Shown piece after piece: positions 13,649-35,382 of a stretch of DNA of 35,467 nt. How positions within the stretch are numbered: position 1 is the stretch's first letter; each line of letters starts with the position of its first letter. A model generated the notes under the pieces. The model searched no databases, was not told the origin of the DNA, and worked only from the letters and a program-made list of their open reading frames with translations. The stretch comes from Pseudanabaena biceps PCC 7429. GTDB taxonomy: Bacteria > Cyanobacteriota > Cyanobacteriia > Pseudanabaenales > Pseudanabaenaceae. The stretch spans positions 1-35,467 of the forward strand of contig NZ_ALWB01000024.1 in the NCBI RefSeq assembly GCF_000332215.1, given 5' to 3'. Position numbers and translations under genes: made by a program.

Positions 13649-13654
13649 TATTAT

Positions 13655-13732
13655 CTAAATTAAATTATCTAAATTAAAGATTATCTGAATTCAAGATTGA
13701 CTGAATTCAAGATTGACTGAATTCAAGATTGA
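13655..13732. repeat. Degenerate 16-bp tandem repeat directly upstream of the arylsulfatase
   Basis: Three exact 16-bp units, CTGAATTCAAGATTGA, lie at 13685-13732. They are preceded by two diverged units (14 and 16 bp) at 13655-13684. The array starts 6 bp from the sulfatase start codon and therefore lies in its leader or promoter. Confidence 0.9.
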
Positions 13733-13765
13733 CTAAGTGGCTGAAACTGTTCTAAATTACATTTT

Positions 13766-15806: not shown

Positions 15807-15891
15807 AAATATATTTTCAACATCGAGGATTGACTCTAGATATATTCTTCATGTCCAATCTACAAGCCTTTTGATTAACTCAAATCTAATA

Positions 15892-15917
15892 TACGGTAAA
15901 TACATGTTAATACCGTA
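15892..15917. promoter_or_regulatory. Candidate operator, TACGGTA-N12-TACCGTA (porin copy)
   Basis: Two perfect inverted 7-mers are separated by 12 bases, with ACATGT in the middle. The same dyad with the same spacing lies upstream of ssuC (19491-19516), and a degenerate form lies upstream of the sulfonate-binding protein (34137-34162). The regulator is not known. Spacing and symmetry suit a dimeric or tetrameric transcription factor. Confidence 0.7.
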
Positions 15918-15997
15918 GTATAAAATTAAGTATTGCATGTATATGTATTAAAAGCAAGGCTTTTAAATAATTAGAAAAGATAGAAAGGATAAATAAA

Positions 15998-17026: not shown

Positions 17027-17644
17027 TTAAATCGCATAAACTTCCTGTAGAGTGGGTGACTGAGAAGGCAAGGAGTCATGCTTATGGCTTTTTTTTACAT
17101 CATTGCTAGCGATCGCATCGATTAAATCATTTAAAGCTGTCTGCAAACGAATGTGAAGCCCTATATCGGCAGCAAGTTCTGAAACATTGTTTAATTGTAG
17201 TTGATCATCAAGCGCAAATACACTAGTGAGAATCCGCGTTGTGCCGAGTTCGGCTAGAACAGGTTTGAGCGAATATTCTAGCGCGACAGAATGCCCGATG
17301 GTATTACTAGTCGATAGGGGTAAAATCACTTTCTGGGATAAAATGTCACGGGGTAACAGATCGAGAAATGATTTTAGTAAGCCCGTGTAAGCAGCCTTAG
17401 AAATCGGACTGACAATAATCAGAGCCTCAGCATCTTCAATCATCTTCTTAGGATAGAGTAGTGCAGGACTGGCATAACGCCCAAAGGCTAAGTCTTCAGC
17501 TAATAAGTCGCGCACTAGCAAAGTAGTTACTTTGATATTGCTTGTTCCTGATTGTGCTTCCAGTAAACACTTCGCATAATCTAGTAAATAATGTGCTTTG
17601 CAAGGATGGGTGGGACTGCCACCAATTAACAAAATACGAGCCAT
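17027..17644 (-). CDS. ssuE: NAD(P)H-dependent FMN reductase, SsuE-like
   Basis: The 205-residue flavodoxin-fold protein starts MARILLIGGSPTHP, the phosphate-binding loop of the NADPH-dependent FMN reductase family. It contains SPISKAAYTGLLKSFLDLLP, the typical SP-x-Y/T...LK-x-x-LDLLP motif around the flavin. SsuE reduces FMN and hands it to the SsuD-type monooxygenase that cleaves sulfonates. It lies 38 bp downstream of ssuB in the same direction. A truncated relative (30 codons) lies at 22068. Confidence 0.9.
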   Translation of the reverse strand: MARILLIGGSPTHPCKAHYLLDYAKCLLEAQSGTSNIKVTTLLVRDLLAEDLAFGRYASPALLYPKKMIEDAEALIIVSPISKAAYTGLLKSFLDLLPRDILSQKVILPLSTSNTIGHSVALEYSLKPVLAELGTTRILTSVFALDDQLQLNNVSELAADIGLHIRLQTALNDLIDAIASNDVKKSHKHDSLPSQSPTLQEVYAI

Positions 17645-17682
17645 ATCAAATCCTTCAATCTAAAGTCTAAATCTAGAGCCAT

Positions 17683-18444
17683 CTATGCAGCTTGGTTAAC
17701 AAATTGTGGAGCTAATTCAGGGCTCATTACTCTTGTCCGAATCTGATCGACTAAGGCGGCAAATTCAGCGCTACCACGAGCGCGGGGACGGGGTAAATCA
17801 ATATGGAGATCGAGTCCAATTTGCCCATGTTCAATTAGAATTAGGCGATCGCTAAGGGCAACAGCTTCTTCCACATCATGGGTAATAAGCAACGTAGTGA
17901 ATTTCTGTTCCTGCCAAAGGGTTTCTAATAAAGACTGCATCTCAATCCGAGTCAGCGCATCTAAAGCTCCCAAAGGCTCATCTAATAGCATGAGTCGAGG
18001 CTCGCTTACGAGTGCTCGCGCAAGGGCAACCCGTTGTTTTTGTCCGCCAGAGAGAATTGAAGGAAATTCACTAGCGCGATCGCCTAAACCAACTTGAGAC
18101 AAAGCCCAACGCGCTCGCACACGGGATTCTTTTTCTAATCCCAAAGCGACATTTTGGTAAACTCTTTTCCAAGGTAGCAGTCTCGGCTCTTGAAACATGA
18201 CTCTGGCAATTGAATTAATTCCTTTAACTGGTTTATCATCCACCCACAGCGACCCTGCGCTGGGCTCCGATAAACCTGCGATCGCTCTTAATAACGTACT
18301 TTTGCCACAGCCACTACGCCCGACAATCGAAATAAACTCCCCTGCTTTAATTTCAACATTTAATCCTTGCAGGACATGAGTTTTTCCAAAACTTTTCCAA
18401 AGATTCTCAACAACTAGGTTTACGCCTCTTACAGAATTTGTCAT
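17683..18444 (-). CDS. ssuB: Aliphatic sulfonate ABC transporter ATPase
   Basis: The 253-residue ATPase has Walker A GRSGCGKST (residues 42-50), a Q-loop (FQEPRLLPW), the ABC signature LSGGQKQR, Walker B LMLLDEPLGALD, and a switch histidine in LLITHDVEEAV. The FQEPRLLPW and ALDALTR features are typical of the nitrate/sulfonate/taurine (SsuB/TauB) family. It powers uptake through the SsuC permease encoded 84 bp upstream. The binding protein is not in this operon; a candidate lies at 34237 on the opposite strand. Confidence 0.94.
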   Translation of the reverse strand: MTNSVRGVNLVVENLWKSFGKTHVLQGLNVEIKAGEFISIVGRSGCGKSTLLRAIAGLSEPSAGSLWVDDKPVKGINSIARVMFQEPRLLPWKRVYQNVALGLEKESRVRARWALSQVGLGDRASEFPSILSGGQKQRVALARALVSEPRLMLLDEPLGALDALTRIEMQSLLETLWQEQKFTTLLITHDVEEAVALSDRLILIEHGQIGLDLHIDLPRPRARGSAEFAALVDQIRTRVMSPELAPQFVNQAA

Positions 18445-18467
18445 AATGCCTCCATTTCTTGGTTATA

Positions 18468-18507
18468 CGAAAATTACAAATCACAAATTACGAATTACAA
18501 GTTACGA
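18468..18507. repeat. Short tandem repeat between ssuC and ssuB
   Basis: Imperfect repeats of the form (A)ATTAC(A/G)AA/GTTACGAA occupy the spacer between the two ssu genes. This type of short tandemly repeated sequence is common in cyanobacterial intergenic regions. It probably does not break the operon. Confidence 0.6.
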
Positions 18508-18528
18508 ACTGAATTGCACCCAATACCT

Positions 18529-19380
18529 CTAAGTAGCTTTTACTCTTTGGTAATTAGGATGCCAATTCAAAAACCATGCTTCTAAAGCTCTGACGATTAC
18601 ATCGGCTAACTTCCCAAAACTTGCGTAGAGAATAATACTGAATACGACGATATCGGTTTGCATAAATTCCCTTGCGCTAGTTGCCATGTAGCCAATTCCT
18701 GAATCAGCAGCGATCGTTTCGGCAACAATTAACGATAGCCACATAATTCCCAACGAAAAGCGCACACCAACTAAGATCGAAGGTAATGCGCCTGGGAGGA
18801 TAATATTCCAGAAAAGTTGAAAAGGATTGAGCCCGTAAACCTTACCCATCTCAATCAAACCACTATCAATACTGCGGATGCCGTGAAATGTATTGATGTA
18901 AATGGGAAAGAGAACACCACTAGAAACGAGAAACAACTTCGCTTCTTCTCCAATCCCAAACCAGAGAATGACCAAAGGAATTAACGCTAGGTTAGGGATA
19001 TTTCTCCACATTTGCAGAGTAGTATCGAGGATCTTCTCGGAAACGACGAACAGTCCATTTACTAATCCGAGAATGAATCCGATACTGCCGCCGATCGCAA
19101 AACCAGTTAATGCTCTTGAGGCGCTGATCTTAAAGTTGGTAGCTAGTTCTCCTGATTGGGCAAGTTTTACTGCTGCGGTCACTACTGTAGTTGGAGCAGG
19201 GAGAATCCTTGTGGAAAGCCAACCAAATTGAACTGCAATCTGCCAGAGAATAACGAGGAAAATGGGAAATAACCAAGGAATTAGTTTGTCGAAAATTTCT
19301 TTGGCTCGGACGATCGCCTTAAAAGATGGCTTCTGCTTTGACTGATAAGGGGGAGTTGAGAAAGAGGAAGTATATTGCAT
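18529..19380 (-). CDS. ssuC: Aliphatic sulfonate ABC transporter permease
   Basis: The 283-residue protein has about six membrane helices and the binding-protein-dependent permease motif (the EAA loop region GKVYGLNPFQLFWNIILPGALPSI) that contacts the ATPase. ILPAPTTVVTAAV near the N-terminus and GIGYMATSAREFMQTD near the C-terminus are typical of SsuC/TauC. It is the first gene of the minus-strand group ssuC-ssuB-ssuE-nitroreductase. The TACGGTA dyad lies 110-136 bp upstream of its start codon. Confidence 0.94.
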   Translation of the reverse strand: MQYTSSFSTPPYQSKQKPSFKAIVRAKEIFDKLIPWLFPIFLVILWQIAVQFGWLSTRILPAPTTVVTAAVKLAQSGELATNFKISASRALTGFAIGGSIGFILGLVNGLFVVSEKILDTTLQMWRNIPNLALIPLVILWFGIGEEAKLFLVSSGVLFPIYINTFHGIRSIDSGLIEMGKVYGLNPFQLFWNIILPGALPSILVGVRFSLGIMWLSLIVAETIAADSGIGYMATSAREFMQTDIVVFSIILYASFGKLADVIVRALEAWFLNWHPNYQRVKAT

Positions 19381-19490
19381 AGTGGTCTTTATAGTCTACT
19401 GAACGCGATCTAATCACGACCTACAAAGCCTTGGAAAAGCCTTGGAAAACTTGTACTTTGATGTATCGCAGTTGTTTATCAATCACAATC

Positions 19491-19516
19491 TACGGTAAAA
19501 TCATGTAGATACCGTA
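19491..19516. promoter_or_regulatory. Candidate operator, TACGGTA-N12-TACCGTA (ssuC copy)
   Basis: Perfect inverted 7-mers, extended to CTACGGTA and TACCGTAG, are separated by 12 bases with TCATGT in the middle, as in the porin copy. The site lies between the divergent ssuC operon and the TauE/SafE gene, so it could control both. Confidence 0.75.
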
Positions 19517-19570
19517 GAATCTAAAGCTCAGTATGTCACTTGCGGTGCAAAAAATCAATCTTTTTTAAAA

Positions 19571-19600
19571 ATTAATCAAAATTAGTCAAAATCAGTCAAA
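19571..19600. repeat. 10-bp tandem repeat in the ssuC/tauE divergent region
   Basis: Three 10-bp units of ATTARTCAAA type (ATTAATCAAA, ATTAGTCAAA, ATCAGTCAAA) are in perfect register. A tandem AAAGCCTTGGA repeat lies nearby at 19425-19448. The 379-bp gap also holds the operator and a dispersed hairpin element. Confidence 0.75.
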
Positions 19601-19622
19601 GATTCAGTATTGGTGATTTGTA

Positions 19623-19706
19623 CTAAGTAGCTAATCATAAGTAAACTTAAAGCCTAGAAGAGCGTACCGCCCGCTGTGCGGGCGGTACGCTTGCCGAACT
19701 ACTTAA
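19623..19706. repeat. Dispersed hairpin repeat with variable core (copy 4, right arm shortened)
   Basis: The left end CTAAGTAGCTAATCATAAGT and the right end GCCGAACTACTTA match copy 5 at 22150. The core stem is perfect (19661-19674 and 19678-19691). Compared with copy 5, about 21 bases of the right arm between the stem and GCCGAACTAC are missing, so this copy has an internal deletion. Confidence 0.85.
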
Positions 19707-19759
19707 ATACGGGGCTTTGGAGTTTATTTTGGAGTTTATCAAGAGAATAAAATTAATAA

Positions 19760-21939: not shown

Positions 21940-22067
21940 AATACTTAGATAAACTAATAATTAGTATTTCACAAAATTGTAGTCCAGATAACATATCTTT
22001 TCAGCGCGAGTATGACAGACTTCTAGAAGCAATCCACGATAAACAAGTCGGATAATGAGGGTATTGA
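21940..22067 (+). promoter_or_regulatory. Conserved 127-nt leader, copy upstream of the ssuE-like remnant
   Basis: This stretch aligns, almost ungapped and up to the start codon, with 28845-28971 upstream of the amidohydrolase. The hand alignment gives about 90 of 127 identical. The first 27 bases differ at one position and contain the dyad ACTAATAATTAGT (21953-21965). Both copies have GTCGG/ATCGGG and GAGGGTAT/GAGAGTAT near the start codon. It probably carries a shared promoter and operator, or a leader RNA element. Confidence 0.65.
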
Positions 22068-22149
22068 GTGGCTAATATTCTTTTAATTAATAGCAGTCCT
22101 TCGGCTCCTTCTAGATCTCAGGGACTTTTGAACTATGCGATCACATTAC
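22068..22149 (+). pseudogene. Truncated NAD(P)H-dependent FMN reductase (SsuE/MsuE-like) remnant
   Basis: A GTG start after GAGGG opens a frame reading ANILLINSSPSAPSRSQGLL, then NYAI. This is the N-terminal flavin-phosphate loop of the SsuE family; the intact ssuE at 17644 begins MARILLIGGSPTHP and continues LLDYA. After about 27 codons the sequence runs into a dispersed hairpin repeat at 22150, where a TAG (22158-22160) ends the frame. No SsuE sequence continues on the far side. The gene was evidently cut by insertion of the repeat with loss of the rest. Confidence 0.7.
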
Positions 22150-22253
22150 TAAGTATCTAGGCATAAGTAAACTTAAAACCTAGAAGAGCATACCGCCCGC
22201 GCAGCGGGCAGTATGCTCTCAGGTTTTAGTTTTTAATTATGCCGAACTACTTA
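22150..22253. repeat. Dispersed hairpin repeat with variable core (copy 5, full length)
   Basis: The ends TAAGTATCTAGGCATAA and TTATGCCGAACTACTTA are imperfect inverted copies. The central stem AGAGCATACCGCCCGC pairs with GCGGGCAGTATGCTCT (one mismatch, loop GCA). It directly follows the ssuE-like remnant. The 114 bp from here to the next gene shows nothing recognisable. Confidence 0.85.
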
Positions 22254-22367
22254 ATAGCCATTCAGAAATAGATTCAAATCCCCTTACGACAAAATCAAAA
22301 CTTTTTAAATTCATTCAAGCAAAGTGTTAACAGCTAATTAACTAATTCCACCTTTTCCATACTTACT

Positions 22368-23405
22368 ATGAAATACAACAAGCTTGGCGATAGCGATTTA
22401 CAAGTTTCCAAAATTACCCTCGGTACGATGACATGGGGAAATCAGAACACGATCGCCGAAGCCCACGAACAACTCGATTATGCCTTTGATCATGGCGTGA
22501 ACTTCCTTGACGCGGCGGAAATGTATCCCGTGCCAGTGCAAGAGAAGACCCAAGGCTTGACCGAAAGCTATATCGGTGAATGGTTAGCCAAACGTCAACG
22601 CGATCAAGTCATCGTGGCAACCAAAATTGCGGGGCCAGGACGTGGCTTTGCTTGGCTCCGTAGTGGTGTGCAGAAGATTGATCGCGCCAATATCGAGCAA
22701 GCCGTTAACGATAGTCTGAAACGTTTACAAACCGACTACATCGATCTTTATCAAATCCACTGGCCTGATCGCTATGTGCCTCGTTTTGGAGAAACGGTTT
22801 ATGACGTTACCAAAGAACATGAAACTGTTCCCATTTCTGAACAACTCGCAGTATTTGATGACCTGATTAAAGCGGGTAAGATTCGCCATATCGGAGTCAG
22901 TAATGAGACTCCTTGGGGACTTGCCAAATTTAGCCATGTTGCGAAGAAGAAAGGTTTGCCCAAAATTGTTTCGATCCAGAATGCCTATAGCTTACTGAAT
23001 CGCGCCTTCGATGGAGCCTTAGCTGAAGCTTCCCATCATACGAATGTGCCACTGCTTGCCTATAGCCCTCTCGCCTTTGGGTTACTGACGGGCAAATATC
23101 TCCATGACAATCCCCCTAAAGCGCGTCTTAATGCCTTTTCAGGATTTGGCGATCGCTACCGTAAGCCGAATGTGACCAATGCTGTTGCGGCATATGTGGA
23201 AATTGCCAAGGCACACAATATTAAGCCCTCGGCTTTAGCTTTAGCCTTTGTCCGTAGTCGTTGGTTTGTGGCTAGCACAATCATCGGCGCGACTAGTTTA
23301 GATCAACTCAAAGAGAATCTTGATAGCGTCAATGTGGAATTAGATTCTGCCATTTTTGCCGAGATTGAAAACGTAAATTCTCTTTATCCCAACCCCGCAC
23401 AATAA
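22368..23405 (+). CDS. Tas-like NADP(H)-dependent aldo/keto reductase
   Basis: The 345-residue TIM-barrel enzyme closely follows E. coli Tas: LGTMTWGNQNT, FLDAAEMYPVP (catalytic D and Y), KTQGLTESYIGEWLAKR, SLKRLQTDYIDLYQIHWPDR (with the catalytic H), IRHIGVSNETPWG, and the C-terminal STIIGATSLDQLKENLDSV that binds NADPH. It reduces aldehydes or ketones with NADPH. It is followed 261 bp later by a glutathione transferase gene and then a flavin monooxygenase gene in the same direction. I infer a role in handling carbonyl products of C-S cleavage. Confidence 0.92.
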   Translation: MKYNKLGDSDLQVSKITLGTMTWGNQNTIAEAHEQLDYAFDHGVNFLDAAEMYPVPVQEKTQGLTESYIGEWLAKRQRDQVIVATKIAGPGRGFAWLRSGVQKIDRANIEQAVNDSLKRLQTDYIDLYQIHWPDRYVPRFGETVYDVTKEHETVPISEQLAVFDDLIKAGKIRHIGVSNETPWGLAKFSHVAKKKGLPKIVSIQNAYSLLNRAFDGALAEASHHTNVPLLAYSPLAFGLLTGKYLHDNPPKARLNAFSGFGDRYRKPNVTNAVAAYVEIAKAHNIKPSALALAFVRSRWFVASTIIGATSLDQLKENLDSVNVELDSAIFAEIENVNSLYPNPAQ

Positions 23406-23423
23406 AACAAAAAACAACGATCT

Positions 23424-23627
23424 TGTAGGGGTAGAGCATTTGCGCCATTATTTTTGCCTTCCATCAAAATCTTAAATCGCAAATGCTCTACCCTCTCCGC
23501 TTTCATCGACAATTTGTCTCTGAAGTATAAATTTGTCCCTCCGTTGCGAGGTTTAGGGCAGAGCATTCTCAAATTAAGGCGATCTGTAAATTTTATAGAT
23601 TGTGGCGAGAATGCTCTGCCCCTACGA
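23424..23627. repeat. Two-hairpin inverted-repeat element between tas-like and GST genes
   Basis: Hairpin arms lie at 23429-23444 with 23478-23493, and at 23556-23570 with 23607-23621. The outer ends also pair with each other (GTAGGGGTAGAGCATT against AGAATGCTCTGCCCCTAC). Elements with GTAGGGGCAGAGCATT ends are common in cyanobacterial intergenic DNA. A CCAATAA short tandem repeat (23636-23656) follows. Confidence 0.8.
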
Positions 23628-23666
23628 ATCGATCTTCCAATAACCAATAACCAATCACCGATTAAC

Positions 23667-24335
23667 ATGTCCAAAATTCAACTTTACAGTGCCAAAGCCT
23701 GCCCCTATGCCCATCGTACTCGCCTAGTTCTAGGCGAAAAGGGGATTGACTTTGAATATACCGAAATTGATTTGCAGAATAAACCCGAATGGTTCTCGAC
23801 AATTTCCAAATATGGCAAAGTCCCCGCCATTCGTCATGGTGAGAATGAGATTTATGAATCAGCAGTTATTAATGAATACTTGAATGAAGTCTTTCCTGAA
23901 CCTGCGTTATTACCTAAAGATGCTGGTTCTAAAGCGATCGCTAGAATTTGGATTGACTATGCCAATACCAAATTCACAACTGCTTTTGGTAAGTTATTGC
24001 GCGGCAAGACTGCTGAAGAACAAGAGCAAGGTCACACCGAATTAAACGAAGCAATTTTATTCATTGAGAATGAAGCCTTCGCTAAGCTCTCTGGCAATGG
24101 TGCTTACTGGTTTGGCGAAAATATTTCCCTCGTCGATCTCACCTTCTATCCTTGGTTTGAGCGCATTCCTACCCTAGAGCATTATCGCAATTACACGATT
24201 CCTGCGGAAGCTGTGCGCGTTAAGCGTTGGTGGGATGCTGTTAGCGATCGCCCTGCGGTAAAAGCGATCGCTAACCCTGTCGATTTCTACATTGAACGCT
24301 ATTCCCGATTTATTCAACAGCCCGTTGCGGCTTAG
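23667..24335 (+). CDS. Glutathione S-transferase family protein (omega-like, CPYA)
   Basis: I chose the ATG at 23667; the longer frame upstream is only read-through of the repeat element. The 222-residue protein starts MSKIQLYSAKACPYAHRTRL. The CPYA motif supplies a catalytic cysteine as in omega- and DHAR-type transferases. The thioredoxin-like domain continues with GKVPAIRHGENEIYESAVINEYL, where the conserved ES binds glutathione. The helical C-terminal domain has SLVDLTFYPWFER. Cysteine-type enzymes often act as thiol transferases or deglutathionylases. With the aldo/keto reductase and monooxygenase on either side, a role in processing organosulfur or glutathione adducts is plausible. Confidence 0.9.
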   Translation: MSKIQLYSAKACPYAHRTRLVLGEKGIDFEYTEIDLQNKPEWFSTISKYGKVPAIRHGENEIYESAVINEYLNEVFPEPALLPKDAGSKAIARIWIDYANTKFTTAFGKLLRGKTAEEQEQGHTELNEAILFIENEAFAKLSGNGAYWFGENISLVDLTFYPWFERIPTLEHYRNYTIPAEAVRVKRWWDAVSDRPAVKAIANPVDFYIERYSRFIQQPVAA

Positions 24336-24366
24336 TAATTGTGTGGGGCAAAGCGCCACACAATTA
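24336..24366. repeat. Small dyad between the GST and monooxygenase genes
   Basis: TAATTGTGTGGGGC and GCGCCACACAATTA pair with one mismatch around AAA. It begins right after the GST stop codon. There is no T-run, so it is more likely a processing or stabilising hairpin than a terminator. Confidence 0.5.
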
Positions 24367-24392
24367 TGCTAAAAAATTTTAATGGAAAACCT

Positions 24393-25751
24393 ATGAGTCA
24401 AAAACGTCAATTTCGATTAGGTGCATTTATTCAAGCTACGGGTCACCATGTATCGGCATGGAGACATCCTGACGCTCAAATCGATGCAGGGCATAACTTT
24501 GAACATTACAAGCAAATCACCCAAACCGCAGAACGGGGTCTCTTTGATACCGTCTTTCTCGCTGATAGTCCTGCGGTATGGGGTGGATCGCCAGAAACCC
24601 AGAGCCGTAATGGCAAGATTGCTCACTTTGAACCTGTTACCCTCTTTTCGGCACTTTCCGCCGTTACTACCCATATCGGCTTTGTTTCCACCGCTTCTAC
24701 TACTTACGAAGAACCCTATACCTTAGCCCGTAAATTTGCTTCTCTCGATCATCTCAGTAATGGGCGAGCAGCATGGAACGTCGTTACCACAGGTAATGAA
24801 AATGCAGCGGCTAACTTTGGTTTAGAGCATCATCCCGAACATAGTCAGCGCTACGAACGCGCCGAGGAATTTCTCGAAGTTGTGAAAGGACTTTGGGATA
24901 GTTGGGAAGATGATGCTTTCATCGCCGATCGCGAATCTGGTGTTTATTTTGAAGTAGAGAAATTGCATACCCTCAATCACAAGGGTAAGTATTTCTCGGT
25001 CAAAGGACCTCTCAATGTCGCTCGTCCTCCCCAAGGCTATCCCGTGATCGTTCAAGCAGGAGCTTCGGAACCGGGACGCGAACTAGCGGCGCGTACTGCG
25101 GAAGTAATCTTCACTGCTAATCAAACCCTTGCTGACGCTCAGGAATTTTACAGCGATGTTAAAGGTCGTCTCGCTAAATATGGGCGATCAACCGATGATT
25201 TGAAAATTATGCCAGGAGCTTTCCCTGTGATTGGACGCACGGAAGAAGAGGCGCAGGAGAAGTATGAATTTTTGCAATCTCTGATTCATCCCGATGTCGC
25301 TTGGGGCATTTTGAAGCAATATTATCGAGGTGTGGATTTGTCAGGATATTCCCTCGACGATCTCGCGCCAGAGTTACCATCTAACACCAATAACAATAAG
25401 AGTCGCTTGAAGTTAGTCAAGGATTTAGCTTCACAGGGTTTGACTTTGCGGGAGTTGTATCGTTCTCTCGCCACTGCACGCGGACATCGCACGATCATCG
25501 GTACTCCTGAAAGCATTGCTGACCAGTTGCAAGAGTGGTTTGATAATGGTGCTGCCGATGGCTTTAACATCATGCCTCCTATTCTTCCTACTGGTTTAGA
25601 TGATTTTGTAAATCTAGTCGTCCCCATTCTCCAAAAGCGCGGTTTATTCCGCACTGCCTATGAAGGGAAGACTCTCCGCGAAAATCTGGGTTTACGCCGT
25701 CCTGCGAATCAGTACATAATTCGTAATCAGGAAAGACAATTGGTTGCATAA
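24393..25751 (+). CDS. Flavin-dependent monooxygenase of the NtaA/SnaA/DszA (luciferase-like) family
   Basis: The 452-residue enzyme starts at ATG 24393 (MSQKRQFRLGAFIQATGHHVSAWRHP), the usual start for this family, with GGAAA upstream. Characteristic segments are AERGLFDTVFLADSP, LSAVTTHIGFVSTASTTYEEPYTLARKFASLDHLSNGRAAWNVVT (flavin site), and PQGYPVIVQAGASEPGRELAARTAEVIFTA. Family members use FMNH2 from a separate reductase to cleave C-N or C-S bonds in nitrilotriacetate, dibenzothiophene sulfone, dimethyl sulfone or similar compounds. Length and motifs fit the NTA/DszA branch, not SsuD (about 380 residues). The SsuE and nitroreductase in this window are candidate FMNH2 donors. Confidence 0.92.
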   Translation: MSQKRQFRLGAFIQATGHHVSAWRHPDAQIDAGHNFEHYKQITQTAERGLFDTVFLADSPAVWGGSPETQSRNGKIAHFEPVTLFSALSAVTTHIGFVSTASTTYEEPYTLARKFASLDHLSNGRAAWNVVTTGNENAAANFGLEHHPEHSQRYERAEEFLEVVKGLWDSWEDDAFIADRESGVYFEVEKLHTLNHKGKYFSVKGPLNVARPPQGYPVIVQAGASEPGRELAARTAEVIFTANQTLADAQEFYSDVKGRLAKYGRSTDDLKIMPGAFPVIGRTEEEAQEKYEFLQSLIHPDVAWGILKQYYRGVDLSGYSLDDLAPELPSNTNNNKSRLKLVKDLASQGLTLRELYRSLATARGHRTIIGTPESIADQLQEWFDNGAADGFNIMPPILPTGLDDFVNLVVPILQKRGLFRTAYEGKTLRENLGLRRPANQYIIRNQERQLVA

Positions 25752-25753
25752 TG

Positions 25754-25791
25754 GCTGTTAGCTGTTAGCTGTTAGCAATTAGCAATTAGCT
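25754..25791. repeat. Heptanucleotide tandem repeat after the monooxygenase gene
   Basis: The 7-bp unit GCTGTTA is repeated three times and then GCAATTA twice. This is a typical cyanobacterial short tandem repeat. Confidence 0.75.
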
Positions 25792-25833
25792 ATTTGAATT
25801 CAGCGCTTTGCAAGGCAAGGCGTTGAATTTGGT

Positions 25834-26292
25834 TTATTCAGGTAAAAAATCGGGGTTTAGAGTCTGTTCTTGGTTAAAAGGTGATTCAGTGGGAAAAGTA
25901 ACAATATTTAAACCTGTTTCAATAGCGGCTTTTCTACGACCTTCTTGATAGCATTCATCAAAGACTTGTTTTAAATGTGGTTTGAGACTAGGGCTTACTT
26001 TAATGGCTTTGAGAATGCGGCTACGGTGTTCATCAATGGTATACCGCCAACTGGGAGTCCTTTTATTAACTTGATATTGATATTTGAGTAGGTGCATCAA
26101 TAACACTTCTAAATTACTTTCTAAAGCAACTTTTTCTTTTCGCGCCATTGATTCAATTTCTTCTAAAAGGTTCTCAATATCTAAGTTTTCTAGTTGTCCT
26201 GTGCGGAGTTGTTCGCTAGTCGTTTCTAACCACAATAAGTAATCTTGTTCGTAGACTGTCTTTAAATATGGCTTTGCATTTATGACGGTCAT
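25834..26292 (-). CDS. DUF29 family protein
   Basis: The 152-residue protein has the DUF29 layout: YEQDYLLWLETTSEQLR at the N-terminus, LDIENLLEEIESMARKEKVALESNLEVLLMHLLKYQYQ in the middle, and WRYTIDEHRSRILKAIKVSPSLK. DUF29 proteins are small helical proteins, abundant in cyanobacteria and of unknown function; toxin-antitoxin-like or mobile association has been suggested for some. A second member lies at 28180, on the other side of a kinase gene. Confidence 0.9.
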   Translation of the reverse strand: MTVINAKPYLKTVYEQDYLLWLETTSEQLRTGQLENLDIENLLEEIESMARKEKVALESNLEVLLMHLLKYQYQVNKRTPSWRYTIDEHRSRILKAIKVSPSLKPHLKQVFDECYQEGRRKAAIETGLNIVTFPTESPFNQEQTLNPDFLPE

Positions 26293-26621
26293 TGGGTTAC
26301 TCCATTGACGATGTTTCTATTTTACAATGTGATCGCTCAGTACTCAGATTCAGATCTCCGACTTTTTCTAAAGAGGATTGGCAAGTTTACACAAAAAGTC
26401 GGAGATCTAGATTTCTTCTACCGCACTGCGAAGATACTTTTAGTAATGGTTTTGTGGCAGGTTTTATTTTTACTAATTTAGAAGAAGACAATTTAGCAAC
26501 AATCAGGCTCAATCAGCTTATAGAAGCACGCGGAAAATTACCTGCACCAGAAATGTTTTTTCCAGGTCACTATTTAGCCTCATTCTACGAAAACGAATCC
26601 TTTGGTGATTTTGCGGTTTAG
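26292..26621 (+). pseudogene. Decayed hypothetical gene interrupted by an inverted repeat
   Basis: The frame opens with an unconvincing TTG that overlaps the start codon of the divergent DUF29 gene, and has no ATG in its first two thirds. The first half contains an inverted repeat (26352-26408) that encodes meaningless residues. The second half (FSNGFVAGFIFTNLEEDN to ASFYENESFGDFAV) looks more like a real protein end, but I do not recognise the family. I read it as the tail of a gene damaged by a repeat insertion. Confidence 0.35.
26352..26408. repeat. Inverted repeat AGATCTCCGACTTTTT
   Basis: Perfect 16-base arms (26352-26367 and 26393-26408) surround a 25-base loop. The design AGAT-(C)TCCGACTTTTT...AAAAAGTCGGAGATCT is that of a widespread cyanobacterial miniature repeat. 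Confidence 0.8.
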
Positions 26622-26623
26622 TT

Positions 26624-28105
26624 TTATTTTATTTGAGGGTTTGAAACTTTTTGCTTAACAAATCCTTCGAAAGAGACACCAACCATAATAAAGTCATTTG
26701 TATTTCTAGTTAACTTTATGTATCTGACTTTGTTTCCAAAATCAGTATTAGGATAAAACACCCTTTTTCCTGATGCTATAGGATCCTTTTTTGCTTTGAT
26801 GCCTAACAGCGGGGTGAAGGTACTTCCATCATAACTATATGTATCTAAATCACTGTTAGGTGCTAACTTTGCAATTAATTCTAGGTCTTCTGATGTTAAG
26901 TCACTAAACTCATTACTTGCTGTAGAGGTAGTAGAAGCAGTTGCTGTCGGTGTTGCTGTTGCTGAAGTTGAAGTACTTGCCGTTGGTGTTGCGGAAGGAG
27001 ATGCTGATGGGTTTGTAGTTGAGGTTGGTGGAGTGACGATATTTGGCGGTTTGGGTTTAATCCATTCCCATAAAAATGCACCTGCGATCGCTGCGCCGAC
27101 TAAACCCATGACTGGCAAAAAGAATTTCGCAAAAACGCGCCACGACAGAGGATTTACAGGATTTGCAATCTGAACTTTGGCGATCGGCTTGTTTACAAGT
27201 GGAGACTGCTTTCGCTTTGGTGGCAGATTTACAAGCGGCACAGATGGCGGCGCAACCGATCCTGCAATGGGTGGGCAAGCCTGTAAAGCTGCGAGTGCCT
27301 CACCCGCATTGGCGTAACGTTCCGTAAAAGAATGCGCCACCATTTTTGAGATCACATCAGCAAAGCGATCGCTGACATTAGTGCGGTGTCGCCATAAAAT
27401 TTCACCCGTATTCGCATCCATCTCAAAGCCATCGGGACATGGATATTCACGGATCAACATTTCGATCGCAATGCAACCAATCGCATAAACATCACTAGCA
27501 AACCTTGTTTTACCCGCAGTCTGCTCATCAGGCATATAGCCCTCAGTGCCAAGCGCCCATGTAATCCCCACCTCTGAGTTGATGCCAGTTTTCTTAACGA
27601 GTCTCACCCCGCCAAAGTCCGTCAGCACCAATTTGCCATTTACATCACGGCGGATGATGTTCTCTGGTTTGGGATCGCGGTGAATTACCCCGTTACTATG
27701 CGTATATGCCAAAATTTCTAAAACCTCGATCAAAAAGCCCATGACCTGCGCTTCTGTCCATTTGACATTGGACTGCACTTCCGATCGTAACCTATGACCA
27801 TCCACAAAGTCTTGAACGATATAAAAGTGTCCCTTGTCAAAGCGTCCCTTTTCTTCAAAATAGTCAATCAGTTTCGGAATGCCTTGATGATTCAACTTTT
27901 TCAGGCTTTCAGGTTCTGAAGTAAATAGCTGGCGAGTTTTCTGAATGAGTTGGGATTCGGTCGGCAAACTCAACCGCTTGACCACACATAAACCTGCCCC
28001 AACGCCAAAGTGTAGATCTTTGGCTAAAAAAGTCGCCCCAGAAGCACCTTGACCAAGTTTGTCAATAATTAGAAAGCGATCGCCTTTGAGTTTTTGCCCT
28101 TTCAT
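26624..28105 (-). CDS. Serine/threonine protein kinase (Pkn2/Hanks type) with one membrane helix
   Basis: The 493-residue protein has an N-terminal kinase domain: glycine loop GQGASGAT (18-25), catalytic lysine K43 in CVVKRL, HRDPKPENI (142-150) as the catalytic loop, DFGGVR (163-168), and an APE-region equivalent around LGTEGYMPDEQ. A membrane helix follows near residues 330-350 (FFLPVMGLVGAAIAGAFLW). Next come a Ser/Thr/Ala/Pro-rich linker and a C-terminal domain of about 100 residues (from FSDLTSEDLELIAKLAPNSD to the end) that is probably outside the cytoplasm. The P in HRDPKPEN is usual for cyanobacterial kinases. The C-terminal domain is of unknown type. Its target is not evident; the sulfur genes around it are only neighbours. 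Confidence 0.93.
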   Translation of the reverse strand: MKGQKLKGDRFLIIDKLGQGASGATFLAKDLHFGVGAGLCVVKRLSLPTESQLIQKTRQLFTSEPESLKKLNHQGIPKLIDYFEEKGRFDKGHFYIVQDFVDGHRLRSEVQSNVKWTEAQVMGFLIEVLEILAYTHSNGVIHRDPKPENIIRRDVNGKLVLTDFGGVRLVKKTGINSEVGITWALGTEGYMPDEQTAGKTRFASDVYAIGCIAIEMLIREYPCPDGFEMDANTGEILWRHRTNVSDRFADVISKMVAHSFTERYANAGEALAALQACPPIAGSVAPPSVPLVNLPPKRKQSPLVNKPIAKVQIANPVNPLSWRVFAKFFLPVMGLVGAAIAGAFLWEWIKPKPPNIVTPPTSTTNPSASPSATPTASTSTSATATPTATASTTSTASNEFSDLTSEDLELIAKLAPNSDLDTYSYDGSTFTPLLGIKAKKDPIASGKRVFYPNTDFGNKVRYIKLTRNTNDFIMVGVSFEGFVKQKVSNPQIK

Positions 28106-28179
28106 TACAAAATTCCTACACTAAGACGTTAAGCGCTAGCATATCACGATCTTTTTGCGATCTCTTTTTGCGATCATGG

Positions 28180-28635
28180 TTAACAATCTTCCCAAAAATT
28201 ACGATTTAGAATGTCATTCACATCATAATTCTCTAGCCAAATATCAGGGAAATTAACCTGCGGATATTCTTCTCTCATCGAAGCAAGAGCATTTTCAAAT
28301 ACTTTAGGCAAAATTTCCGAGATTTGATTTTTTAAACTCGGTGCATCTTCCAAAATATCTTTGATATCGTTACGAAAAGCTCTAATTTCTCTTTGCCAAC
28401 CAACATAACATTCGGGTAATGGCACATAACAGCGTTTGAGTAAATGCTCAATCAATCTTCTTAACAAACTTCTGATCGCATTACGCTGACTTTTACCCAA
28501 AGTATCTATCTCCTCAATTAAATTTTCTAGATCCAAATTTGCAAAATCATGCGCTTTTAATTTAGCGATCGTATCTTCGACCCAGAGTAAAATATCTTGC
28601 TCATAGAGAGATTGAGGGGTAACTAACTCTGTCAT
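28180..28635 (-). CDS. DUF29 family protein (second copy)
   Basis: The 151-residue protein matches the DUF29 pattern: YEQDILLWVEDTIAKLK, LDLENLIEEIDTLGKSQRNAIRSLLRRLIEHLLKR, and WQREIRAFRNDIKDILEDAPSLK. It lies 74 bp upstream of the kinase gene on the same strand. It is only distantly similar to the copy at 25834, so this is not a recent duplication. Confidence 0.9.
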   Translation of the reverse strand: MTELVTPQSLYEQDILLWVEDTIAKLKAHDFANLDLENLIEEIDTLGKSQRNAIRSLLRRLIEHLLKRCYVPLPECYVGWQREIRAFRNDIKDILEDAPSLKNQISEILPKVFENALASMREEYPQVNFPDIWLENYDVNDILNRNFWEDC

Positions 28636-28710
28636 TTTCGCCTCTATAACGTAACTACATATACTATATGTCCTATTGAAATTTATGGCTGCACAAAATC
28701 AGCATAAGTA

Positions 28711-28803
28711 TATAGCAATCCTAAATGAGTCATAAGAACCAAAAGTATATAACAAGGGGCTTAAACCCCTTGCCTTCCTCACAAATGAAATAGGATTGCT
28801 ATA
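28711..28803. repeat. MITE-like element with TATAGCAATCCTA ends
   Basis: The perfect 13-bp terminal inverted repeats are at 28711-28723 and 28791-28803. Inside is a small hairpin (CAAGGGG/CCCCTTG, 28753-28772). CTCACAAATGAAATAGG at 28778-28794 pairs with CCCTATTTCATTTGTGAG just outside the right end. The TATAGCAAT end is also found at the left end of the element at 5471. The remaining gap up to the leader at 28845 has no coding signs. Confidence 0.8.
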
Positions 28804-28844
28804 ACCCTATTTCATTTGTGAGAAAGCCTAAAATCTTAAAACCA

Positions 28845-28971
28845 AATACTTAGACAAACTAATAATTAGTAATACGCATATTTGTAATCTAGAAGACATC
28901 GGTTTTGAACGTGGCTATGCCAAACTTTGATCATTAATCTACGGCAACCCAATCGGGTAACGAGAGTATCT
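28845..28971 (+). promoter_or_regulatory. Conserved 127-nt leader, copy upstream of the amidohydrolase
   Basis: This is homologous to 21940-22067 (about 70% identical by eye, ungapped apart from one base at the end), and contains the dyad ACTAATAATTAGT at 28858-28870. The similarity stops at the start codons: the genes downstream are unrelated (an FMN reductase remnant and an amidohydrolase). Confidence 0.65.
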
Positions 28972-30528
28972 ATGAGCAAATATAGCCGCCTCAGTACTTC
29001 GCCTTCCGCCGCATTGAAAGCGAAGCTTGACTATCCAGTAATCGATACCGATATTCATACTAACGACTTCACTCCCGATTTTGAGGACTACATCGCTAAT
29101 TATGGCGGTTCCAAATTAGTAGATGAACTGCGTAAAGCTGAATTTGGTCGCCTCAATCCTAAGTCTGAAGGTAAAGACTGGTACCAACAAACCCCTGAAG
29201 AGCGTCAATATCACCGCACCTTGCGCTCTCCTTGGTGGGCGAGAGTTACCAAGAACACTTTGGATCTTGCTACCTACACTCTTCCTTCTTTATTAGCGGA
29301 ACGCCTTGCTGAGCAAGGTTCTGATTATTCAGTCCTTTTCCCTAATAACGTATTGGCGGCGGCTGGTGCTAGCAATGAGAATCGTCAAGCCTTGCAACGG
29401 GCGATCAATCACTACCATGCTGACCTCTATCGTAAATATAGCGATCGCCTCACCCCTGTCGCTGGAATTCTCTTGAATGATCCTAAAGAAGCGATCGAGG
29501 AGCTAGAATTTGCGGTCAATACTTTGGGCTTGAAGGTAATCAATATCCCTGGTGGTGTCAAGCGTCCGATTAAGGCGATCGCTGATAAATATCCCGCCGA
29601 TAAGTATCCTGAAATTGCTCGCTATGCCTCCTATATCGATTTCTATGGAATTGATAGCGAGTATGACTACGATCCATTCTGGGCAAAGGTTGTCGAATTA
29701 GGCGTACCGATCGCCACTCACTACGGTAGCCAAGGTTGGACGGGTCGCTCTTCCATCAGCAACTACATGAACAACCACATCGGACACTTTGCCGATGGTT
29801 CGGAAGCTTTTGCTAAGGCTCTGTTCTTTGGTGGTGTCACTAAGCGCTTCCCACAATTGCGTGTGGCTCTGCTCGAAGGTGGTGCGGATTGGGGCGCTCA
29901 TGTTTATATTCACTTGGTCGATCGCTTCTTAAAGCGCAACCTTGAAGGTTTGAAGAACTACGATCCAACTGAAGCTAATGCTGATGAATTGCTCGATATC
30001 TTCGAGAAGTATGGTCAAGAATTGACTAAGGGCAGATCCTTCACCAAGGAAGAATTGCTACAAACCGTCCTCGGTTCTTCGTTCCTACGCCATAGCCGTT
30101 CTCCTATTGGTGATGAGCTAGAAGATTTCGGTAAGGCAGGTATTGAGAAGATTGAAGATATTCGCGATCAGTGGGTCGATAACTTCTACTTCGGTTCTGA
30201 GTCAGACGATCGCACGATTGCTACTGCTTTCAACGACAAGGCGAATCCATTGGGCGTGAAGATTAACGCGATCTACTCTTCTGATGTCGGTCATTGGGAT
30301 GTTCCCGATCTCACTCAGCCTCTTGCCGAAAGTTGGAGCTTGGTAGAAGAAGGGGTGATTACGGAAGCTGATTTCAAGGCTTATGTCTTCTCGAATCCTT
30401 ACAAGTTCTACACTCAAGCTAATGCGAACTTCTTCAAGGGTACGCAGATTGAGGCGAAGTTGAACAAATATCAACCCGCCCCCGTCGCTGTTAAACCAGC
30501 GGCTCAAAAGGTTGCTGTAGGCGTATAA
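28972..30528 (+). CDS. Amidohydrolase-2 family metal-dependent hydrolase
   Basis: I chose the ATG at 28972 (MSKYSRLSTSPSAALKAKLD), preceded by GAGAG and matching the end of the conserved leader; the TTG at 28927 lies within the leader. The 518-residue protein starts its TIM barrel with YPVIDTDIHTND. Further metal-ligand regions are VPIATHYGSQGW, ALLEGGADWGAH, and the final SSDVGHWDVPD. These fit the PF04909 amidohydrolase/decarboxylase group. Such enzymes hydrolyse or decarboxylate small ring compounds. In this context the substrate may be an organosulfur or aromatic compound, but it cannot be read from the sequence. Confidence 0.88.
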   Translation: MSKYSRLSTSPSAALKAKLDYPVIDTDIHTNDFTPDFEDYIANYGGSKLVDELRKAEFGRLNPKSEGKDWYQQTPEERQYHRTLRSPWWARVTKNTLDLATYTLPSLLAERLAEQGSDYSVLFPNNVLAAAGASNENRQALQRAINHYHADLYRKYSDRLTPVAGILLNDPKEAIEELEFAVNTLGLKVINIPGGVKRPIKAIADKYPADKYPEIARYASYIDFYGIDSEYDYDPFWAKVVELGVPIATHYGSQGWTGRSSISNYMNNHIGHFADGSEAFAKALFFGGVTKRFPQLRVALLEGGADWGAHVYIHLVDRFLKRNLEGLKNYDPTEANADELLDIFEKYGQELTKGRSFTKEELLQTVLGSSFLRHSRSPIGDELEDFGKAGIEKIEDIRDQWVDNFYFGSESDDRTIATAFNDKANPLGVKINAIYSSDVGHWDVPDLTQPLAESWSLVEEGVITEADFKAYVFSNPYKFYTQANANFFKGTQIEAKLNKYQPAPVAVKPAAQKVAVGV

Positions 30529-34018: not shown

Positions 34019-34136
34019 AAATTCGGTTAGCTCCTTTTTATTTCGTTTTTCTATTTCGTTTTTTTGTTTCGATCCCATTTTGTATACCAGTTAACTTGCA
34101 TTTTATTTTGAACCATGGGAGGATTATTTTATAAAC

Positions 34137-34162
34137 TACGGTATTTACGTGTATATTTAGTA
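34137..34162. promoter_or_regulatory. Candidate operator, half-degenerate TACGGTA copy (ssuA)
   Basis: A perfect CTACGGTA at 34136-34143 is followed at the same spacing by TTTAGTAG in place of TACCGTAG. The centre has ACGTGT where the other copies have ACATGT or TCATGT. The site lies 75-100 bp upstream of the sulfonate-binding protein gene. Confidence 0.5.
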
Positions 34163-34236
34163 GATTGCTTGAAATCCTTAATTTACAAAGGATATACAGA
34201 ATTTCAATAATTTCCCATAACTCGCTAGACAAGTCC

Positions 34237-35382
34237 ATGAAAGAACTGCCTCCATTGTTTAAGGTCTTCACTCGCCCCGCTCAAGTCCAAAAAATTAAAC
34301 GGCGATCGCTATTATTTGCCACAGCCTATAGCCTCGTCTTATCCACCACTTTAATTGGTTGTGCATCTAGTCCTACAGCCTCAACTTCGACCGATTCTAA
34401 AGATTCTAAAACAGCATCAACATCTGACATAAAAACTACTGAAACGAACAAACCTACTGCTAGTGGGGAGAAAAAAGTCATTCGGATTGTGCGCTCTAAA
34501 CAACTCACAGCTCTAGCAGTTCTAGAGAAGCAAGGTACCTTAGAGAAAGCCTTTCAACCCCTTGGCTATGAAGTGAAATGGGCTGAATTTGCCGCAGGAC
34601 CTCAGCAACTTGAAGCCTTGAATGCTAATGGTCTCGATATTGCTTCTACTGCCGAATCACCACCTGTATTTTCCCAAGCCGCAGGTAGTCCTCTTGTCTA
34701 TTTAGGAGCCACAGCAACTAATGGCAAACCTGTAGCCCTCCTAGTCGCCAAAGATTCGACTTATAAAACTGCGGCGGATCTTAAAGGCAAAAAGATTGCT
34801 TTCCAGAAAGCATCAATCGGTCACTACTTAGCGGTCAAAGCTTTTGAGAAAGAAGGGCTATCCAATAGTGATTTTGAATCTATCTTTTTACCTCCTGCCG
34901 ATGCTAGTGCCGCTTTTAGTCAAGGCAAAGTTGATGGATGGTTTATTTGGGATCCCTTCGTCACTCGTACAGAATTAAGTGGAGTTGGAAGAGTATTACT
35001 TGATGGAGAAAAGCTCCGTGATACTCGTAACTTCTACACCACAACTCGTAAATATTATGAGGGGAATAAAGATGCCATTAAGCTTTTCTTTGAAGAGCTA
35101 GAAAAGGCTGATGCATGGGTAAAGGCAAATCCTAAGGAAGTTGCTGTTCTACTAACCGATGTGACTAAAGTTGATGCACCCATCTTAGAAAAGATGCACG
35201 CTAAGTATGAATATGGCTTGCGTCCAATTACTGAAGATGTGATTAAAGAGCAAGAGAAAGTTGCTGAGTTTTGGTTCAAATATAAGTTGATTCCGAATAA
35301 GCCCGATGTTCGTGCTGGCTTCTTAAAACCTGAAGAGTACGAATACATTACTCCCAAAAATGTACTTGCTCTTGGAAAGTAA
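34237..35382 (+). CDS. ssuA: Aliphatic sulfonate-binding lipoprotein of the Ssu transporter
   Basis: I chose the ATG at 34237; an upstream TTG at 34165 would start inside the candidate operator. The 381-residue protein has a lipoprotein signal (KIKRRSLLFATAYSLVLS, lipobox TLIGC with the cysteine at residue 42), a Ser/Thr/Lys linker, and then the SsuA/NrtA-type periplasmic binding fold: VIRIVRSKQLTALAVLEKQG, LNANGLDIASTAESPPVFSQA, DLKGKKIAFQKASIGHYLAVKAFEKEGL, and SQGKVDGWFIWDPFVT. The WDPF and GKKIAFQK motifs are typical of aliphatic sulfonate binding proteins. It would deliver sulfonates to SsuC/SsuB, encoded about 15 kb away on the other strand, unless further ssu genes follow beyond the window. 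Confidence 0.92.
   Translation: MKELPPLFKVFTRPAQVQKIKRRSLLFATAYSLVLSTTLIGCASSPTASTSTDSKDSKTASTSDIKTTETNKPTASGEKKVIRIVRSKQLTALAVLEKQGTLEKAFQPLGYEVKWAEFAAGPQQLEALNANGLDIASTAESPPVFSQAAGSPLVYLGATATNGKPVALLVAKDSTYKTAADLKGKKIAFQKASIGHYLAVKAFEKEGLSNSDFESIFLPPADASAAFSQGKVDGWFIWDPFVTRTELSGVGRVLLDGEKLRDTRNFYTTTRKYYEGNKDAIKLFFEELEKADAWVKANPKEVAVLLTDVTKVDAPILEKMHAKYEYGLRPITEDVIKEQEKVAEFWFKYKLIPNKPDVRAGFLKPEEYEYITPKNVLALGK

Follow-up and report, generated by a model that had tools for sequence, protein, structure and literature searches.

Sulfur-shortage sensing in cyanobacteria is, to our knowledge, less known than the sensing of nitrogen or phosphorus. Synechococcus elongatus has CysR, a sulfur regulator of the Crp family, and NtcA-type cyanobacterial promoters carry nutrient-status operators. 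The LysR-type sulfonate activators include CysB, Cbl and SsuR, and the T-N11-A form is typical of LysR sites, while the CymR-CysK regulon has been described in Bacillus and Staphylococcus. All of these share something with a stretch of 35,467 nucleotides from Pseudanabaena biceps PCC 7429 (contig NZ_ALWB01000024.1, positions 1 to 35,467 of the forward strand, hereafter “the window”), its genome and its relatives. As in the CymR-CysK regulon, sulfur-source genes stand under one operator, an Rrf2-family gene lies next to cysK, and repression under plentiful sulfur is likely. As in the CysR system, a Crp-like gene is linked to cysA and cysK genes, and sulfur genes are found on a plasmid in some strains. 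A T-N11-A distal box upstream of sulfonate-type genes, with a LysR gene in or near the sulfur locus (contig C119, plasmid ABRG53c, genome G005), recalls the LysR-type activators, and nutrient-status operators at promoters recall the NtcA type. The element in question is a 127-bp leader that occurs twice in the window before unrelated genes. To judge from its sequence and context, it is probably a duplicated DNA-level promoter-operator module of a cyanobacterial sulfur-limitation regulon; that the signal is sulfur, for the leader as for its dyad, we infer from gene content. The features concerned are listed below, with bit scores from R1, a sequence-only model built from 18 leader copies, and R2, a model of the dyad whose matches are counted at E ≤ 0.05. 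Numbers preceded by G, C, L and f are our labels for genomes, contigs, loci and families.

21940 to 22067, plus strand: leader copy 1, preceding an ssuE-like remnant and then aldo-keto reductase, glutathione S-transferase (GST) and luciferase-like monooxygenase genes (R1, 99.7 bits)
21945 to 21964, plus strand: distal box TTAG-N5-CTAA-TAA-TTAG of leader copy 1, an exact match, its TTAG and CTAATAATTAG being invariant in 18 aligned copies
22034 to 22061, plus strand: sulfur dyad of leader copy 1, left half diverged and right half degenerate, not among the R2 matches at E ≤ 0.05
22068 to 22155, plus strand: ssuE-like remnant, from a DNA alignment with the intact gene of L015, interrupted close to where a palindromic repeat resembling a miniature inverted-repeat transposable element (MITE) begins
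22368 to 25751, plus strand: aldo-keto reductase, GST and luciferase-like monooxygenase genes, 3' of leader copy 1
28845 to 28971, plus strand: leader copy 2, immediately 5' of the amidohydrolase gene (R1, 109.7 bits)
28850 to 28869, plus strand: distal box TTAG-N5-CTAA-TAA-TTAG of leader copy 2, an exact match, with the same invariant parts
28939 to 28966, plus strand: sulfur dyad of leader copy 2, left half good and right half degenerate (R2, 38.9 bits; a training sequence)
28972 to 30528, plus strand: amidohydrolase gene (PF04909), 3' of leader copy 2

In an ungapped comparison, positions 21940-22066 and 28845-28971 are identical at 90 of 127 bases (70.9%), and a local alignment of 528 against 527 bases scores 77, while the best of 500 dinucleotide shuffles reaches 34. 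This bears out the ungapped identity of about 70% given by the initial annotation, which was also right about the first 27 bases, called nearly identical (26 of 27 match), and about a dyad within them, since ACTAATAATTAGT is found in both copies. It further had the similarity stop exactly at two start codons, GTG at 22068 in copy 1 and ATG at 28972 in copy 2. The similarity does end near these codons, but the 20-base block at offset 120-139 that straddles them is still identical at 12 positions out of 20. Outside the leaders, the flanking 20-base blocks upstream match at 5-6 positions, and those from offset 140 onward at 2-8.

Further copies, which the initial annotation proposed to look for, exist in the same genome, in the family and, as diverged relatives, in families f16 and f32. 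The third full copy of this genome (C13:11573) precedes a row of ferredoxin, NMT1 binding protein, FAD enzyme and arylsulfotransferase genes; a leader shared by two genes is therefore a fair description of the window but not of the genome. Among 38 genomes of the family, a search at E ≤ 0.001 finds 19 leader copies in 7 genomes, all of the genus Pseudanabaena, with two or three full copies in each carrying genome. Every one of the 19 falls into one of three classes defined by the downstream gene, namely amidohydrolase (7), ferredoxin (6) and SsuE/aldo-keto reductase (6). In the last class, SsuE is intact in L015, L024 and L025, reduced to a remnant in the window, and absent from L014 and L019. 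In other copies the conserved module ends with GAG(A/G)GTAT and the gene starts later, after about 26-30 nt in the ferredoxin class and about 130 nt in the amidohydrolase copies L009 and L011. When 18 of the 19 copies are aligned (alignment A3, the source of R1, in which L025 is left out as identical to L024 over the aligned stretch), mean identity is 83.8% within classes, 73.3% between them, and 73.4% between classes inside one genome. Because the last two values are equal, there has been no recent copying of the leader, and by their sequences the copies are old duplicates inherited vertically.

At E ≤ 1e-4, R1 finds matches in 16 of 388 genomes of the class, half of them from the genus itself and the other eight from families f16 and f32. 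R1 also gives weak partial matches in G005, G006, G010 and G032. Eleven listed matches lie outside the three leader classes. Six of them precede luciferase-like monooxygenase genes (L050, L053 and L055 by Pfam; L054, L056 and L057 by eye), two nitroreductase genes (L051, L052), two GST genes (L058, L059) and one an HlyD-type gene (L033). The distal box and the 3' block are readable in L050-L054 and L056, which are f32 and f16 relatives; the box is kept in the f32 copies and, as GTTAG-N5-CTAAC, in L051 and L052. Inspection by eye suggested an arylsulfotransferase in the last part of L051, but it has no Pfam match at 1e-8 and is not claimed. These distributions bear on a second explanation, in which the leader is a mobile or multicopy repeat that lies before genes by chance. 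The leader is indeed duplicated within the genome, it accompanies an island of sulfur genes which Pseudanabaena sp. ABRG5-3 carries on a plasmid, and MITE-like repeats are present in the window. A repeat of this kind is nevertheless most improbable, given that all 19 copies precede one of three genes at two or three full copies per genome, that identity between classes shows no recent copying, and that 10 of the 11 further matches precede luciferase-like monooxygenase, nitroreductase or GST genes. The initial annotation had named two outcomes that would speak against it, namely shuffled controls scoring as well and a repeat found at random places; neither occurred, since the shuffles fall short of the observed score and the places of the copies are not random.

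The leader is made up of a distal box, a core, and one good and one degenerate half of the dyad AATCTACGGTAAnTCnnnnGAnnnACCGTAG. In the distal box, TTAG-N5-CTAA-TAA-TTAG, the TTAG and CTAATAATTAG are invariant in the 18 aligned copies. Its exact matches in the window are the two leaders only; with up to three mismatches there are 12 matches in the window for 8.8 expected, which is not significant. The 3' part of the leader contains the promoter-proximal half-site AATCTACGGTAA, followed by the degenerate second half. The half-sites of the dyad are arranged as CTACGGTA-N12-TACCGTAG, giving a GTA-N12-TAC spacing; unlike NtcA-type promoters, the dyad consensus has no GTA-N8-TAC, and the gene set differs. 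A looser search of this genome with the 3' block finds full inverted repeats before a GST gene, beside sfnG and before tauD. Without gaps, 28 chosen dyads align over 50 columns (alignment A4, 28 of 29 listed dyads, window positions 22020-22069 being omitted for their poor dyad). In 13 of 29 rows, for 1.6 expected from shuffles, the dyad follows a promoter of the form TTG-N17-nAnnnT at a distance of 8-12 nt; spacings of 16-18 were permitted, and each of the 13 has 17. This excess is indicative, as the pattern was picked once the rows had been inspected and some of them are orthologues. The 29 rows counted come from 34, with L033, L048 and L074, the other strand of L088 and the first strand of L064 left out. 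The dyad would begin a few bases into the transcript and span roughly +3 to +35. A -35 of this kind is lacking in the three leaders of this genome, but they do have the distal box. A motif shared by functionally related operons in a fixed geometry, as asked of the operator of a sulfur regulon, is present here. Of the two options offered by the initial annotation, a common promoter and operator or a regulatory RNA, the first is supported by the fixed place before three gene classes, by the distal box, and by a dyad common to other sulfur promoters.

A regulatory RNA, that is, a riboswitch-like leader folding in the transcript and sensing a sulfur compound, is very unlikely. The arms of the dyad could make a hairpin of 7-12 bp near the 5' end of the transcript, and a few pairs are changed on both sides, for example between L071 and L073. 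The consensus fold of the 18 leaders, however, has -1.47 kcal/mol and no compensatory pairs, which also answers the proposal to look for co-varying positions; after the inner pairs of the dyad are added, the covariation score is reached by 19 of 500 shuffles, a weak signal that is not decisive. Over the window, Rfam gives no match at gathering score, and a relaxed search returns E ≥ 0.43, far below gathering scores. Three single leaders fold no better than shuffles (z of 1.82, 0.56 and -0.13), the 11-pair outer stem has no excess pairing or covariation, and in the leader classes the right arm is mostly unpaired yet conserved. The distal box and core, for their part, would sit upstream of the transcript. 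The dyad arms pair in 73.1% of cells, compared with 28-47% when they are slid and 73.8% when they are shuffled. Since they pair no more than shuffled arms do, each half varies without regard to the other, which is what a DNA palindrome would show.

With the leader taken as a promoter-operator module, the reach of its dyad can be followed beyond the leaders. The dyad stands at three further places in the window:

11231 to 15706, minus strand: sulfatase and OprB porin genes, 3' of the dyad at 15891
15891 to 15918, minus strand: full sulfur dyad before the OprB porin and sulfatase genes, promoter TTGCTT-N17-AATACT
17027 to 19380, minus strand: FMN reductase, ABC ATPase and permease genes (ssuE-, ssuB- and ssuC-type); the matching permease of ABRG53c is annotated ssuC
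19490 to 19517, minus strand: full sulfur dyad, 5' of the ssuC-type permease gene, promoter TTGATT-N17-CATACT
34136 to 34163, plus strand: sulfur dyad with a weaker right half, before the NMT1-type binding protein gene
34165 to 35382, plus strand: NMT1/THI5-type periplasmic binding protein gene, start uncertain; its positional counterpart in ABRG53c is annotated as an aliphatic sulfonate binding protein

R2 has matches in 18 of the 26 genomes of the genus and none in the other eight. In this genome there are 20 rows, counted as 14 distinct sites. The full form of the dyad precedes ssuC, OprB-sulfatase, cysA, sulfate-binding protein, tauD and sfnG genes, a set that covers sulfate transport, sulfonates, sulfones and taurine, and it also adjoins cysK/crp. 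Eight of the 14 sites lie beside plain sulfur genes, namely sfnG, the ferredoxin-arylsulfotransferase row, tauD, the OprB-sulfatase pair, ssuC, cysA, a sulfate-binding protein and the binding protein of the window; a ninth, at an NMT1-type gene on C41, probably has a sulfur role too. The six sites that did not serve in training precede cysA, the genes of a sulfate-binding protein and a SulP permease, that of an NMT1 binding protein, that of a major facilitator superfamily (MFS) protein, and two whose products resemble carbonic anhydrase and vanadium haloperoxidase. Across 84,980 species genomes, the exact dyad pattern occurs in 10 stretches, every one of them cyanobacterial (two Phormidium, three Pseudanabaena, Oscillatoria, Microcoleus, Aliterella, Calothrix and one uncultured). 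Sulfonate or sulfate transport genes, found by profiles, adjoin it or lie within a few kb in L081, L085, L086, L087 and L088; by eye, a GST is seen near it in L083 and L089 and a ferredoxin row in L090, while no sulfur genes were seen near it in L082 or L084. Plasmid ABRG53c of Pseudanabaena sp. ABRG5-3 carries cysA, crp, cysK, cysE, rrf2 and ssu genes together with two of the leader classes.

Several results pull the other way. The dyad of leader copy 1 is poor by R2, and the diverged leader copy that R1 finds in G027 lies 5' of an HlyD-type efflux gene, which does not belong to the sulfur theme. Eight of the 14 sites of this genome are training sequences, and for six of the 14 the gene that follows has no plain link to sulfur (the amidohydrolase, GST and MFS genes, those resembling carbonic anhydrase and haloperoxidase, and one for an NMT1-type binding protein of open substrate). 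In its simple form, the dyad pattern is not enriched in the 388 genomes of the class, with 14 matches against 18 for a reversed control, and some matches look like chance, such as L072, which lies within coding-like sequence. All 14 matches of this pattern have a length of 28 bases although 26-29 was allowed, and within the genus the count is 8 against 0 for the control. As the raw pattern is not enriched, the claim is carried by the model and the context.

The mechanism proposed for the dyad is that a sulfur-status regulator would bind it at the transcription start and hold the promoters down when sulfur is plentiful. The sulfur locus of this genome, on C119, has cysA, a Crp-like gene, cysK and rrf2, and dyads precede cysA and occupy the cysK-crp interval. 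Several f32 genomes group crp, cysE, rrf2 and cysK in one place and have dyads in the gaps. The reader of the dyad would be, tentatively, the linked Crp-like protein (CysR-type) or, possibly, another protein, with the linked Rrf2 protein (CymR-type) a rather unlikely choice. The Crp-like protein (profile PF13545) has an orthologue of at least 78% identity in 17 of the 26 genus genomes, and in all 17 loci an R2 match lies about 55-60 bp before crp, 12 of them at E ≤ 0.05 and five at 0.067-0.36. A Crp-family regulator linked to sulfur genes and with a site before its own gene, the mark of a CysR-type system, is therefore present. Outside the genus, 7 of 13 Crp-like loci have an R2 match at E ≤ 1, which reaches E ≤ 0.05 in four; it lies no more than about 150 bp upstream of the Crp match in five of the seven and farther away in two. 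In L237, L238 and L248 the dyad adjoins crp or cysE-crp, not rrf2-cysK. CysR reportedly governs sulfur genes in S. elongatus, according to a title cited in PMC8049743; a term search of the text of PMC12016511 finds no CysR binding site.

This candidate also meets difficulties, which extend to the wider interpretation of the dyad. The GTA-N12-TAC spacing of the dyad half-sites does not resemble that of usual Crp-type sites, and a position where transcription begins would suit repression more than activation of the Crp type. The S. elongatus plasmid pANL, a carrier of sulfur genes and of rrf2 that was taken as a positive control, shows no dyad (best match 19.1 bits, E 0.19), and this separates our case from the CysR system. 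Genomes G018, G023 and G025 have crp without any dyad at E ≤ 0.05 genome-wide, and G016 has one dyad only; in L232, crp and rrf2 are adjacent with no R2 match between them. Within the genus, the Crp-like protein and the dyad co-occur less closely (p = 0.012) than Rrf2 and the dyad do. The latter association speaks for an Rrf2/CymR-like repressor that would bind the dyad as CymR does with CysK in Firmicutes: two or more dyad rows are found in 13 of 13 genus genomes with an Rrf2 orthologue (at least 65% identity; a fragment in G023) and in 2 of the 13 others (p = 1e-5). An Rrf2-domain regulator next to cysK, the feature asked of a CymR system, is present (PF02082, E 5.2e-32; neighbour TIGR01139, 456.6 bits), and the cysK-rrf2 pair has a dyad before it. 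A site at the transcription start suits a repressor, dyads lie beside rrf2 in five f32 loci (L240, E 2.5e-6; L243, 9.6e-4; L234, 0.0099; L230, 0.012; L233, 0.017), and a complex of CymR with CysK is described in PMC2869319. Yet outside the genus none of 17 Rrf2 loci (L200-L216) has an R2 match at E ≤ 1, and L239, L244, L245 and L249 have no dyad at E ≤ 5. In contrast to the CymR-CysK regulon, the system here is cyanobacterial, and the dyad is absent from the rrf2-cysK locus in most of the genomes examined outside the genus. Four genus genomes with the Crp-like protein and without an intact Rrf2 keep the site before crp (E 2.7e-4, 0.0013, 0.021 and 0.36), and G032 has dyads without an Rrf2 orthologue. 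The protein itself scores 92.8 bits with the CymR model NF047409, below the cut-off of 195, and its binding to the dyad is putative. When further loci were scanned, up to 30 per search, 16 of 20 had an R2 match at E ≤ 5. G032 (C1, C3, C5 and C8), where 10 dyad rows are found and each of the three leader classes is represented, has neither Crp-like nor Rrf2 orthologues, and this too counts against the picture; it is explained by neither candidate unless its regulator lies outside the assembly.

From the distal box, a second, pathway-specific activator would act. A LysR-type protein is our guess, because the box has the T-N11-A form and the three leaders of this genome are without a recognisable -35. 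An inverted repeat of this form upstream of the promoter, as asked of a LysR-type site, is present in the 18 copies (TTAG-N5-CTAA). A search of this genome finds four LysR genes, one of them on the sulfur-locus contig C119, about 7-8 kb from crp; its counterparts share 86% identity with it on plasmid ABRG53c and 69% in G005. The TTAG-N5-CTAA box was looked for upstream of the C119 gene and not found, which is unfavourable to the guess and sets this case apart from the LysR-type sulfonate activators; what links this gene to the box is its place in the locus, and binding is putative. On ABRG53c (L251, NZ_AP017563.1, about 78503-78560), two more TTAG-N5-CTAA boxes lie in the intergenic region upstream of the amidohydrolase leader and face a divergent row of ABC transporter, MarR and MFS genes. 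A MarR protein would be an alternative reader of the distal box. Whichever protein reads it, the three leader operons would require both inputs, the sulfur regulator and the distal-box activator.

In its fullest form, the model states that several cyanobacterial families share a so far undescribed sulfur-status operator, a 34-bp dyad at the transcription start, whose regulator is encoded with cysK, cysE, crp and rrf2, and that three operons add a distal activator box and fire only under sulfur shortage combined with a specific organosulfur cue. To this whole we would give slightly less than an even chance. An operator shared by a regulon is a familiar kind of element, but neither this dyad nor such a regulon is described among the literature matches listed or in the passages searched. 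In the main text of a Synechocystis sulfur-starvation study, the word “motif” is absent (PMC2491639). With the operator defined, its target operons listed and two candidate regulators linked to it, cyanobacterial sulfur control becomes directly testable. If the model is true, the amidohydrolase, the ferredoxin/flavoprotein pair, the haloperoxidase-like protein and the OprB porin become tied to sulfur scavenging.

Some smaller observations concern the same elements. In four genomes, the ferredoxin-class leader is preceded by a second dyad match (E 0.004-0.018), about 120-135 bp ahead of where the leader begins (L006:4867-4916; G013:C1:526709; G012:C113:4291; G032:C8:45670). The protein encoded at L126:8018-9841 (C146) has no Pfam match at 1e-8 but is similar to vanadium-dependent bromoperoxidases (PDB 1qi9, E 1.8e-63), and a sulfur dyad lies just 5' of its gene; it may be a haloperoxidase belonging to the sulfur regulon. 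At L128:6153-9534 (C41), a dyad lies between genes for an FAD/metallo-beta-lactamase fusion protein and a carbonic-anhydrase-like protein, and on pANL a carbonic anhydrase gene also adjoins an rrf2 gene. Palindromic MITE-like repeats related in sequence are found in the window at 22147-22270 and 19600-19740, and one of them starts near the break of the ssuE-like remnant.

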